Source of the DNA: Microcaldota archaeon | GTDB lineage: Archaea; Micrarchaeota; Micrarchaeia; Micrarchaeales; CABMGC01 | Assembly (NCBI GenBank): GCA_021792095.1 | Contig: JAJYVH010000001.1 | Coordinates: 381,324 to 445,323 of the forward strand | Reading direction: 5' to 3' | Length of the DNA: 64,000 bases | In this document: one piece after another, positions 21,302-62,225 of the stretch | Position numbering within the stretch: the first letter of the stretch is position 1 | How the letters are laid out: every line of letters starts with the position of its first letter | Notes under the pieces: model-generated | What the model was told of the DNA's origin: nothing | The model's input: only the letters and a program-made list of their open reading frames with translations | The model's database searches: none | Translations under genes and position numbers: made by a program

Positions 21302-24253
21302 CTAGCCCTTCACCACGCCAATTGGCACGTTCTTGGTGACTATCTTTGATAAGCCCGCCTTCTCGACCACGCCCACCACCTCGTCAACGTTCTTGTATGC
21401 CCACTCCGCCTCCTCGCTGACGAGCTTCCTGCTCCTCACCCTTATCTCTATGCCCTTGCTGCTGAGCGAGCCGAAGGTCTTGCCCTCGGGTATGGTGCGT
21501 ATCGCCTCGTGCCTGGACATGACTCTGCCTGCGCCGTGGCACGTGGTGCCGAAGGTCTCCTTCATAGAGCCCTCCTGGCCGCAGAGTACGTAGCTGGCGG
21601 TGCCCATGCTGCCCGGGATCAGCACCGGCTGCCCCACGCTCCTGTACTCCTTTGGCACCTCTTCCCTGCCCTTCGGGAAGGCCCTGGTGGCGCCCTTCCT
21701 GTGCACGTACACCTGCATCCTGCGCCCGCCCACGGTGTGCTCCTCCTTCTTCACTATATTGTGCGCTACGTCGTATAGCAGCTCCATGCCCAGCGCGTCG
21801 GCGCTCCTGCCGAAGACCTCCTCGAAGCTCTTCCTGACGTTGTGCATTATTATCTGTCTGTTCGCGAATGCATAGTTGGCCGCACCATTCATTGCTGCAA
21901 GGTAACTATCGGCTTCCCTGCTGCCTATGCGTGCATAGCTGAGCTCTTTGTCAACGAGCTGCATTTTGTTCTTCTCCTGGTACTCGTTGAGCGTGCGCAG
22001 GTAGTCGCTGCAGATCTGGTGCCCGAAGCCGCGCGACCCTGTGTGCACCATGACCAGCACCTGCCCTAGCTCTAGGCCGTAAGCGGAGGCCGTTTTCTCA
22101 TCGAACACCTGTCCGACTCTTTGCACCTCTAGGAAGTGGTTGCCCGCCCCAAGCGTCCCGAGCTGATCCAGGCCTCTCTTCCTCGCCTCGCTGCTCACGG
22201 CTGAGAAGTCTGCGCCTTGCATCCTTCCGTTCTCCTCTATCCTTTCAACGTCGTTAGCCCATCCATATCCATTCTCTATCGCATACTCCGCACCGAGTTC
22301 GGCTACCTTCTCTAGGTCGTTCTGTGTGAAGCCTGCCTTGAACCTGCTGCCAACCCCGCTTGGCACGTTCTTGAACAGTGTGTCGAGGAGTTTGCCTAGG
22401 GCTGGCCGCACCTCCTTTTCGCTCAATCCTGTCTTTATCAGCCTTACCCCACAATTAGAGACAACAATGCCGTTTGCAACGAAGTTATGGTTTGCATTAT
22501 TTACCGTCAGATCGAAAACATTTCCGTTGTAGGCAACCTCTTCTATTTTGCTTATTTCGTCAAGAGCGAAACCTCCGTCTCCTATCGCGTTTTTGGAAGT
22601 AAACTCGCTGAACTTGTAATCTTTCCATATTCTTGCGTTTCCGGTCCTTCCGTCAAAAGCATGTTCTAAGAAGCTTCTGCTTACTTCCTCTTGCATAAGT
22701 TCCTGTACTATTTTTTCTTTGCTGGAGCCATTCTGCTTCATTTCGACTGCCATTTTCCTGGAGCTGTCCCTAGTGCCTCTGAGTCTTTTCAGGTATGTAA
22801 GGTAAAGGGCTGCCAGGCTTGCAGCCCTCTCTTTGTCCTTGTTGTAGGTGTAGCCTACAGTGCCAAAGAATTTAATCAGATTTTCCGTATTGGATAGTAT
22901 TCCTAGCCTGAAACCGACAGTTCCGCCCCACTTTCCAGCATACCTGTATCCCTCTACAATTGCAGGTTCAAGTGTTGATACGCCAAGCGATTCGAGCATT
23001 TTTCTTATGTCTGAGAGAAAAGCGACCGCGTTGTCCCCTAGTTCTTCCAGCTTCTTGACACTGAACGCAGGCATGTGAAAGTTATAGCCGTTTGCGAATG
23101 CTTGTGGCGTCCCCATTTCAGCGCCGAAGTAGGCAGACAGGAATAGCCTTTTTTGCCAGTTTTCAGAATTAGCAACCCATTCGGGTACTCTGTATGCCTG
23201 CGTCGATTTGTTGCCTATTGGCGCTCCAAGGCAAACTAGGAGGGCGCTGAACGCAGCAGCGCTTACCTTAAGTGAGTGTTCCTCATAATCAAATTCCGTC
23301 GTGCCATACGCCGTGGTTATTTTGTGATGCCTTTTCCTATGATACATGCCGGCCCTGAATCCAAGCAGTTCTATGTCTCTCTTGACCATTAGCAAATCTT
23401 CTTTTTTTCCATAAAAAATACTGTACGAAATTGCACCTTTTGTTTTAGATATGGTTCCGTCGCCGATCACAAAACCTAACAGTTTCAGCAATATGGGGAG
23501 TTTTTGATGGGTCGTAGTTACGTTATTCAGCCCCCGTTTCCTGAGTATATTCAGTACCTGTGCCAAAGCGTTGCCTTTCCTGCTTATTCCAAACTCTTCA
23601 AGCGTAGCAGACAGTCTCTCTTCGGAAAGTATCACCCTCTCAATAGGCCTAACGAAATCTACACCGATAAATCCAGTCACAGCGACTTTTCCGCCGACTT
23701 TAAGTTCTGCAATTGGCAGCATGCCCCTGTCCGTGAGTATGGGATGATCGGCAGTAGCCACAAGCTCTTTGCCTAGCGCTGTCGTAATGCGGAATACCTT
23801 TCTGTCATTTTGTTTTTCCATGAACAGTATAGGCGCGCTTTCCGATTGAGTCGAAGTGTTTAGGTCGAAGGTTACGAGATGTGCGTGCTCTTCTCTCATA
23901 TCACATATCCTGTGTCTCGCCCCGTTTGAGTCAAGCACCAAAGTGTCAGGTGTAAGGCAGTTTATGTCAAATCCGACAGCGCCTGGAGACACTATGCCTT
24001 CATTAGCGTCGAAGGCGACCACGCCCCCTATGGGCATGCCGTAGCCCGCGTGCGCGTCCGGCATCACGAGCACGTCGCCCACTATGCCTGGCAGCGTGGA
24101 GACATTAATTGCCTGCTGCACAGTGCCGTCGTTCTTCACCTTCTCCAGCATGCGCTCGTCCAGGTACATGACGACGTTTGCGTTCATGCCCTTGCCGGCA
24201 TCCCTCTCCAGCATGAACTTTACGTCGCTGAGCCTCTTGAATTCCATGCACAA
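21302..24253 (-). CDS. rtcB: RNA-splicing ligase RtcB with in-frame intein
   Basis: Exteins GDVLVMPDAHAGYGMPIGGV...SPGAVGFDIN / CGVRLIKTG...LGAGNHFLEVQ...HTGSRGFGHQ; ~502 aa intein between DIN and CGVRL. Confidence 0.95.
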   Translation of the reverse strand: MCMEFKRLSDVKFMLERDAGKGMNANVVMYLDERMLEKVKNDGTVQQAINVSTLPGIVGDVLVMPDAHAGYGMPIGGVVAFDANEGIVSPGAVGFDINCLTPDTLVLDSNGARHRICDMREEHAHLVTFDLNTSTQSESAPILFMEKQNDRKVFRITTALGKELVATADHPILTDRGMLPIAELKVGGKVAVTGFIGVDFVRPIERVILSEERLSATLEEFGISRKGNALAQVLNILRKRGLNNVTTTHQKLPILLKLLGFVIGDGTISKTKGAISYSIFYGKKEDLLMVKRDIELLGFRAGMYHRKRHHKITTAYGTTEFDYEEHSLKVSAAAFSALLVCLGAPIGNKSTQAYRVPEWVANSENWQKRLFLSAYFGAEMGTPQAFANGYNFHMPAFSVKKLEELGDNAVAFLSDIRKMLESLGVSTLEPAIVEGYRYAGKWGGTVGFRLGILSNTENLIKFFGTVGYTYNKDKERAASLAALYLTYLKRLRGTRDSSRKMAVEMKQNGSSKEKIVQELMQEEVSRSFLEHAFDGRTGNARIWKDYKFSEFTSKNAIGDGGFALDEISKIEEVAYNGNVFDLTVNNANHNFVANGIVVSNCGVRLIKTGLSEKEVRPALGKLLDTLFKNVPSGVGSRFKAGFTQNDLEKVAELGAEYAIENGYGWANDVERIEENGRMQGADFSAVSSEARKRGLDQLGTLGAGNHFLEVQRVGQVFDEKTASAYGLELGQVLVMVHTGSRGFGHQICSDYLRTLNEYQEKNKMQLVDKELSYARIGSREADSYLAAMNGAANYAFANRQIIMHNVRKSFEEVFGRSADALGMELLYDVAHNIVKKEEHTVGGRRMQVYVHRKGATRAFPKGREEVPKEYRSVGQPVLIPGSMGTASYVLCGQEGSMKETFGTTCHGAGRVMSRHEAIRTIPEGKTFGSLSSKGIEIRVRSRKLVSEEAEWAYKNVDEVVGVVEKAGLSKIVTKNVPIGVVKG
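22454..23959 (-). other. RtcB intein (502 codons) with LAGLIDADG-type homing endonuclease
   Basis: Begins Cys (CLTPDTLVLDSNG), ends ...NANHNFVANGIVVSN followed by Cys+1; LLGFVIGDGTI motif; lower GC than exteins by eye. Confidence 0.92.
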
Positions 24254-24646: not shown

Positions 24647-24745
24647 GCAGGGGTGGCGGAGCCTGGTCAAACGCGGCAGACTCAAGATCTGTTGGCCATA
24701 GGCCTGCGGGAGTTCAAAAGCGATGAGCAAATCTCTCCCCCTGCA
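24647..24745 (+). tRNA. tRNA-Leu (CAA) with 13-nt insertion/intron in the T-loop
   Basis: Acceptor GCAGGGG/CCCCTGC; anticodon arm GCAGA-CTCAAGA-TCTGT; variable arm GGCCATAGGCC; T-stem GGGAG/CTCTC enclosing 20 nt TTCAAAAGCGATGAGCAAAT. Confidence 0.88.
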
Positions 24746-24771
24746 CTTTCTCGCTAACTGGGGTGTTGAAT

Positions 24772-25524
24772 ATGGCAAAGGTAAGAGGCAAGGGGAATAA
24801 AAGGGCGAAGGCACTGGCAATGGCAGGCGCTAAGGCGAGGGCAGCGAAGCGTGCGCCGGTGAAGCGCTCGGTGATGGCGAAGGTGCTCGGCGCAAGGATA
24901 AAGGACAAGATGCTGCTCGACGTGCCCCATTACCCCCAGACCGAGGATTTCACGAGCTCGGCAGCCTGCGCCATGATGGTGCTCAAGTTCCTCAAGCCAA
25001 ACTTCAAGTTCAGGCGCGAGGAGGAGTATGACATCTGGCAGGAGGCTGTCAACGGCAGCGTCTGGTACGGTTCCAAGTACGGCCTCGCCTACGCGCTTTC
25101 CAAGCGCGGCGCCAGCGTCGGCATAATGAGCAACACCAAGGACGAGGGCTACGAGCGCAAGATGGCAGTATACGAGAACGTGAACCTGGACACGCTGACT
25201 GCCTCGTTCAACGAGATAAGGCAGAAGTCTGAGCAGGCGGGCATAGAGGAGGAGCACAGGGAGGTGTCTACCACGACCATAAAGAAGGCGCTCTCCGCGG
25301 GCCAGGTGCCAATAGTGCTTATAGACGCCAAGACGATAAACTCTTACCTGGAATCGATGCCGCACTGGGTAGTAATAAAGGGCTACGACACCGACAACTT
25401 CTACATAAACGACCCCTACTCGGACAGCACCATAACAATAGCGGCCAGCGCGTTCAAGGCGGCGCTGGGCTACGAAGCGAACTACCACATGGTGCTGGTG
25501 AACGCGAAGCCCAAGGGCAAGTGA
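24772..25524 (+). CDS. Peptidase C39-like family protein
   Basis: LLDVPHYPQTEDFTSSAACAMMVLKFL...GQVPIVLIDAKTINSYLESMPHWVVIKGYDTDNFYINDPY (papain-like C39 fold motifs). Confidence 0.65.
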   Translation: MAKVRGKGNKRAKALAMAGAKARAAKRAPVKRSVMAKVLGARIKDKMLLDVPHYPQTEDFTSSAACAMMVLKFLKPNFKFRREEEYDIWQEAVNGSVWYGSKYGLAYALSKRGASVGIMSNTKDEGYERKMAVYENVNLDTLTASFNEIRQKSEQAGIEEEHREVSTTTIKKALSAGQVPIVLIDAKTINSYLESMPHWVVIKGYDTDNFYINDPYSDSTITIAASAFKAALGYEANYHMVLVNAKPKGK

Positions 25525-62083: not shown

Positions 62084-62225
62084 GGGGTTGTGGCGTAACC
62101 TGGCAGCGCGGCAGGCTCCAGATGTTTGGAAGGAATTGAGCCGTTTGGCGATGATTAGTGTTTGGAGCGGATCCAAAGTGATCGGGCGTAACCTGCATGT
62201 CGGGGTTCAAATCCCCGCAACCCCA
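62084..62225 (+). tRNA. tRNA-Trp (CCA) with 69-nt intron (62122-62190) after position 37
   Basis: Acceptor GGGGTTG/CAACCCC; anticodon stem GCAGG/CCTGC; loop CTCCAG^intron^A; T-arm CGGGG-TTCAAAT-CCCCG. Confidence 0.92.

Follow-up and report, generated by a model that had tools for sequence, protein, structure and literature searches.

A very short predicted intron in the T-loop of tRNA-Leu(CAA), conserved across an order of Ca. Micrarchaeota

Non-canonical tRNA introns and the tRNA-Leu(CAA) gene

Non-canonical archaeal tRNA introns with relaxed bulge-helix-bulge (BHB) or bulge-helix-loop (BHL) motifs, those of the T-arm included, have been reviewed (PMC6379350 and PMC12397907, citing Marck and Grosjean 2003). 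Splicing endonucleases of the epsilon-2 class reportedly cleave relaxed motifs as well as BHB and BHL ones, at a range of sites in the tRNA (PMC12397907, PMC6379350, PMC4033280). For example, the enzyme of ARMAN-2 (Ca. Micrarchaeum acidiphilum) cuts BHL substrates in vitro, among them pre-tRNA-Cys (PMC12397907). An intron within the T-arm is also found in tRNA-Ile(UAU) of Cyanidioschyzon merolae, where it blocks formation of pseudouridine-55 by Pus4 until it is removed (PMC9602550).

The gene described here lies in a window of 64,000 nt (the whole stretch of DNA analysed) from a Ca. Micrarchaeota genome that consists of one contig of 771,545 nt (0.77 Mb). The 13-nt insert in its T-loop is, on comparative grounds, almost certainly a very short intron. 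Introns of this kind are already known, and this is a well-conserved case with no new mechanism. It shares with other non-canonical archaeal tRNA introns a T-loop site, a 4-bp helix between exon 1 and the 3' part of the intron, bulges at both junctions, and a normal tRNA as the product expected when each bulge is cut behind its second base. Unlike them, it has a 3' bulge of 5 nt, is 10-21 nt long in its family, often has hardly any inner helix, and is fixed in one isoacceptor across an order. The tRNA introns of ARMAN-2 occur in the same phylum, at non-canonical sites and with the same class of endonuclease. The C. merolae intron, in contrast, belongs to a eukaryote (a red alga) and is one of three in its tRNA. 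No description of a Leu(CAA) T-loop intron was found in the searched literature on tRNA introns of Micrarchaeota and ARMAN-2; priority is not claimed because a 2011 study of ARMAN-2 may already list it.

Features of the locus are collected in Table 1. The acceptor stem is GCAGGGG/CCCCTGC, the anticodon arm (GCAGA-CTCAAGA-TCTGT) is free of introns, and the variable arm is long. The T-stem GGGAG/CTCTC encloses 20 nt, TTCAAAAGCGATGAGCAAAT (24713-24732), where 7 are normal. Rfam model RF00005 matches the gene at 42.2 bits, the weakest of the above-cut-off tRNAs of the genome, and ARAGORN makes no call at 24647-24745 with or without its intron mode. The original prediction had described a 13-nt insertion within this T-stem in an otherwise canonical tRNA with an uninterrupted anticodon loop; the sequence parse bears out both parts. 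It had also named an intact second Leu(CAA) gene beside a silent copy as evidence against an intron, and a genome-wide search with Rfam and with patterns found no second gene. There is no other site in the genome that matches AAAGCGATGAGCAAA with fewer than two mismatches; templating of the insert by another genomic site is rejected, no near copy being present. A group I intron can be rejected as well, since 13 nt compares with a catalytic core of about 200 nt or more, and the window holds no group I match.

Table 1. Features of the tRNA-Leu(CAA) locus in the window (positions are those of the window)
Feature	Position	Strand	Basis
tRNA-Leu(CAA), all stems intact	24647..24745	+	Sequence parse
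5' exon, tRNA positions 1-58, ends ...GGGAGTTCAA	24647..24717	+	Rfam RF00005, parse, insert-free orthologues
Predicted intron of 13 nt, AAGCGATGAGCAA, at tRNA position 58/59	24718..24730	+	Sole register giving TTCAAAT in 94/94 distinct insert-bearing orthologues
3' exon: A59 T60, T-stem CTCTC, acceptor CCCCTGC, discriminator A	24731..24745	+	Rfam, parse
Central helix, exon strand G53-C56 (GTTC)	24712..24715	+	Pairs with 24725-24728; partner complementary in 94/94 orthologues
Central helix, intron strand GAGC (relatives GAAC/GGAC/GAAT/GGGC)	24725..24728	+	Orthologue comparison
5' bulge AAA, cut expected after the second base (24717)	24716..24718	+	Bulge rule (cut after second base) and orthologue comparison
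3' bulge AAATC, 5 nt (canonical 3), cut expected after the second base (24730)	24729..24733	+	Orthologue comparison
RtcB tRNA-splicing ligase with intein, divergent neighbour directly beside the tRNA	21302..24253	-	Pfam PF01139 545 bits, PF14890 58 bits
C39-peptidase-like protein, downstream, syntenic marker for the tree	24763..25524	+	Pfam PF11814, tblastn synteny

A conserved splice motif and its register

For comparison, 94 distinct insert-bearing genes were gathered by their 5' halves only, with nothing required of the insert. The inserts are 10-21 nt long and 13 nt is the most frequent length, which removes an earlier doubt that 13 nt might be too short for an intron. The last four bases of the loop are AAAT in 89 genes, ACAT in 4 and TAAT in 1. 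The four bases that precede them are GAAC (71 genes), GGAC (11), GAGC (7), GAAT (4) or GGGC (1). In every gene the 4 nt directly before NNAT can pair with G53-T54-T55-C56 (94/94, against a chance expectation of about 0.012 per gene), and the pairing reaches A57 in 75. The same test placed one to six bases further in is passed by 0 or 1 gene. The changes on the intron side, from GAAC to GGAC, GAGC, GAAT or GGGC, retain G-U pairs; only one-sided changes are visible because the bases on the exon side belong to the invariant consensus of tRNAs. It had been suggested that GTTCA/TGAGC might simply extend the T-stem as an alternative to an intron; the comparison instead identifies this pairing as the conserved central helix of a splice motif.

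The interior of the insert is nearly free to vary, far more so than the exons (90 distinct introns versus 59 distinct exon sets). In the longer introns there is also an inner helix, placed as in a BHB, for example AACA-gaaa-TGTT in L102 and ATAA-tat-TTAT in L170, and likewise in L110. Across the series this helix ranges from 0 to 5 bp, and the gene in the window has at most 1 bp. Inner pairing averages 1.30 bp versus 0.48 ± 0.07 in shuffled sequences, with 0 of 500 shuffles above 0.67. A BHB of opposite polarity, in which the 5' end of the intron pairs with exon 2, was sought by hand and gave no helix in any register. The thermodynamic minimum is a non-cloverleaf structure for the precursor alone, and likewise for the spliced form.

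If G53-C56 form the central helix, A57, A58 and the first intron base make up the 5' bulge, and the last two intron bases together with A59, T60 and C61 make up the 3' bulge. Cutting after the second bulge base therefore falls at position 58/59 at both ends. In the window sequence alone, the four registers given by the original prediction (24716-24728 to 24719-24731) are indeed equivalent; it is the relatives that single out 24718-24730. Removal at 58/59 yields TTCAAAT in 94/94 genes, while 57/58 would leave TTCACAT in 4/94 and 56/57 would leave TTCACAT or TTCTAAT in 5/94. An alternative is a genuine intron spliced at 59/60. That site is the joining point of permuted T-loop tRNAs in Thermofilum and C. 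merolae (PMC3218864), it differs from 58/59 by a single base, and 64/94 genes would give TTCAAAT there too. The remaining 30/94 would carry TTCAATT, though, whereas 58/59 gives TTCAAAT throughout and obeys the second-base rule on both sides; splicing at 59/60 is thus unlikely. An intron with T as its first base occurs in L102, for example.

By the strict archaeal definition of a BHB, the 4-bp central helix is present in 94/94 genes, but the bulges are not both of 3 nt, the 5' one having 3 nt and the 3' one 5 nt. The insert is placed with the relaxed BHB/BHL introns, outside the strict BHB, because of this 5-nt bulge. In a relaxed motif at least one of the bulges beside the central helix is regular, while the opposite junction is relaxed or lies in a loop, and this is the arrangement found here. 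Excising such an intron at its bulges restores a canonical tRNA, as the predicted cuts at 58/59 would in 94/94 genes (TTCAAAT). Introns of this kind also go with a broad-specificity endonuclease in the host; the candidate here is an orthologue of the ARMAN-2 enzyme 4fz2, the breadth itself being known from the ARMAN-2 papers.

A single splicing endonuclease gene was found in the genome (G000:C1:245.4-246.6 kb). Residues 7-385 of its 385-aa product align with 4fz2, an epsilon-2 enzyme, at 418 bits, and the alignment has the same residues at the catalytic positions Y236, H251 and K282 and at K161 of the ARMAN-specific loop (roles in the ARMAN-2 enzyme from PMC6379350). This enzyme, of a class with broad specificity, probably excises the intron. 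In the precursor, G53-C56 would pair with the 3'-proximal GAGC of the intron to form a 4-bp helix flanked by a 3-nt 5' bulge and a 5-nt 3' bulge, a relaxed BHB; in the shortest introns, with an inner helix of about 1 bp, the motif would effectively be a bulge-helix-loop. The endonuclease would cut past the second base of each bulge, and a ligase, most likely the neighbouring RtcB, would join the exons. The restored TTCAAAT loop is proposed to be able, as a consequence, to dock with the D-loop. We assign this full scheme, from the intron at 58/59 to the restored loop, a probability of roughly 0.93 from sequence comparison. Orthologue conservation, complementarity and register together give good support to the T-arm intron first suspected. 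Its status as an intron is as secure as sequence comparison can make it; the cutting, the joining and the enzymes responsible are what we infer.

For other tRNAs of this genome, ARAGORN reports introns of 12, 14, 25, 38 and 44 nt. At 62084-62225 (+) of the window it calls an Arg(CCT) with a 69-nt intron; the loop CTCCAGA reads Trp(CCA), and the intron holds a C-box-like GCGATGA. Outside the window, tRNA-Leu(UAA) (L085, G000:C1 near 118538-118640, minus strand) has a D-loop insert, GGAACGGCTTGAGCCACGGAA, that is conserved in the genus with a variable hairpin tip and is probably a second non-canonical intron. A 3' tRNA-Leu-like fragment, GGGTTCAAATCTCTCCCCCTGCA (L070, G000:C1:116982-117003), lies 1.5 kb downstream of it on the same strand and looks like the attachment-site remnant of an integrated element. 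In some congeners the 3' half of a tRNA-Leu follows an ORF with a homing-endonuclease-like end (L052, G002:C1, near 63337), which suggests a large intron in another tRNA-Leu.

Distribution and loss across the phylum

We searched 301 genomes of the phylum with a Leu(CAA) pattern in which the T-loop insert finishes with GRRYNNATC. It matches 134, all in two families of the window's order: 63 of the 79 genomes in the family of the window and 71 of the 85 in the order's one further family. There were no matches among 137 genomes from other families of the class, and a reversed-pattern control also gave none. Nearly all of the named relatives are Ca. Micrarchaeota MAGs; the intron of Ca. Micrarchaeum sp. 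A_DKE (L170) is identical to that of another genome of the order (G262). A_DKE, a laboratory enrichment with a complete genome (CP060530), has an insert of 18 nt whose inner helix measures 4 bp. A pattern for the uninterrupted form matches 22 genomes, 8 within the order and 14 outside it, a few of the latter matches not being Leu tRNAs. The eight comprise five of the window's genus together with G190, G200 and G221.

Within the genus, Leu(CAA) stands at the syntenic locus with an ordinary TTCAAAT loop in five of the seven other genomes, and the gene was not found in the remaining two, both incomplete. The five intact congeners by themselves suggested a recent insertion in the window's genome, a view that the wider search reversed. 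For almost every other genus of the family, the Leu(CAA) alignment stops at the same base, because those genes hold an insert of their own there.

Almost all of these loci have the C39-like protein next to the tRNA on its downstream side, and in most of the window's family rtcB is on the other flank (tblastn). In a tree of the C39-like protein, the window's genome is placed next to the five congeners with an intact gene (bootstrap 100, SH-aLRT 48), and this group is nested inside intron-bearing relatives (96/97). The intact state requires three changes on the tree, and does so in all bootstrap trees. The insert is thus reconstructed as having undergone three or more clean losses, one of them among the closest relatives, and G190, which has no match to the marker, may be a fourth loss. 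Clean loss can occur by reverse flow of the spliced tRNA, or by conversion with another tRNA-Leu, for example Leu(UAG), whose 3' end is identical.

Other readings of the insert and its significance

The mature tRNA might keep the insert within a lengthened T-arm hairpin made up of T-stem, bulge, TTCA/TGAG helix and loop. The observed complementarity would form such a hairpin too, and the insertion site adjoins bulged bases 59-60, next to which an insertion in the T-loop is sterically least harmful. Such a helix would, however, tie up T54-C56, which are needed by the elbow, and both the length of the insert and the sequence of its loop vary freely. At least three clean losses, moreover, left an ordinary T-loop, and retention is very improbable. 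A decaying or disrupted pseudogene, its function taken over by tRNA-Leu(UAA), is scarcely tenable: the intact stems, the lack of any other CAA tRNA found in the genome and the same insert architecture kept in 134 genomes weigh against it, although Leu(UAA) is present and TTG makes up only about 4% (a rough figure) of Leu codons in the window's long ORFs. Absence of the insert from five congeners would also be expected if it were an error of sequencing or assembly, or had arisen recently by random insertion. That explanation is refuted, with negligible probability left to it, by homologous inserts with a conserved helix in more than 130 independently assembled genomes.

A spliced intron at 58/59 accordingly stands as the preferred reading. 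Why it is kept across the order is addressed by one proposal that we regard as quite unlikely: pairing of the intron with T54-C56 would keep the T-loop inaccessible, both to modification and for forming the elbow, until the intron is spliced out, and would so gate maturation. If this were true, splicing would be a checkpoint for UUG decoding. Since ARAGORN misses the gene, Leu(CAA) may be annotated as absent in these archaea. The family would represent a very short tRNA intron fixed at one position order-wide while its interior turns over freely, and it would offer a natural series (10-21 nt, with 0 to 5 bp of inner helix) for the minimal needs of the epsilon-2 endonuclease.
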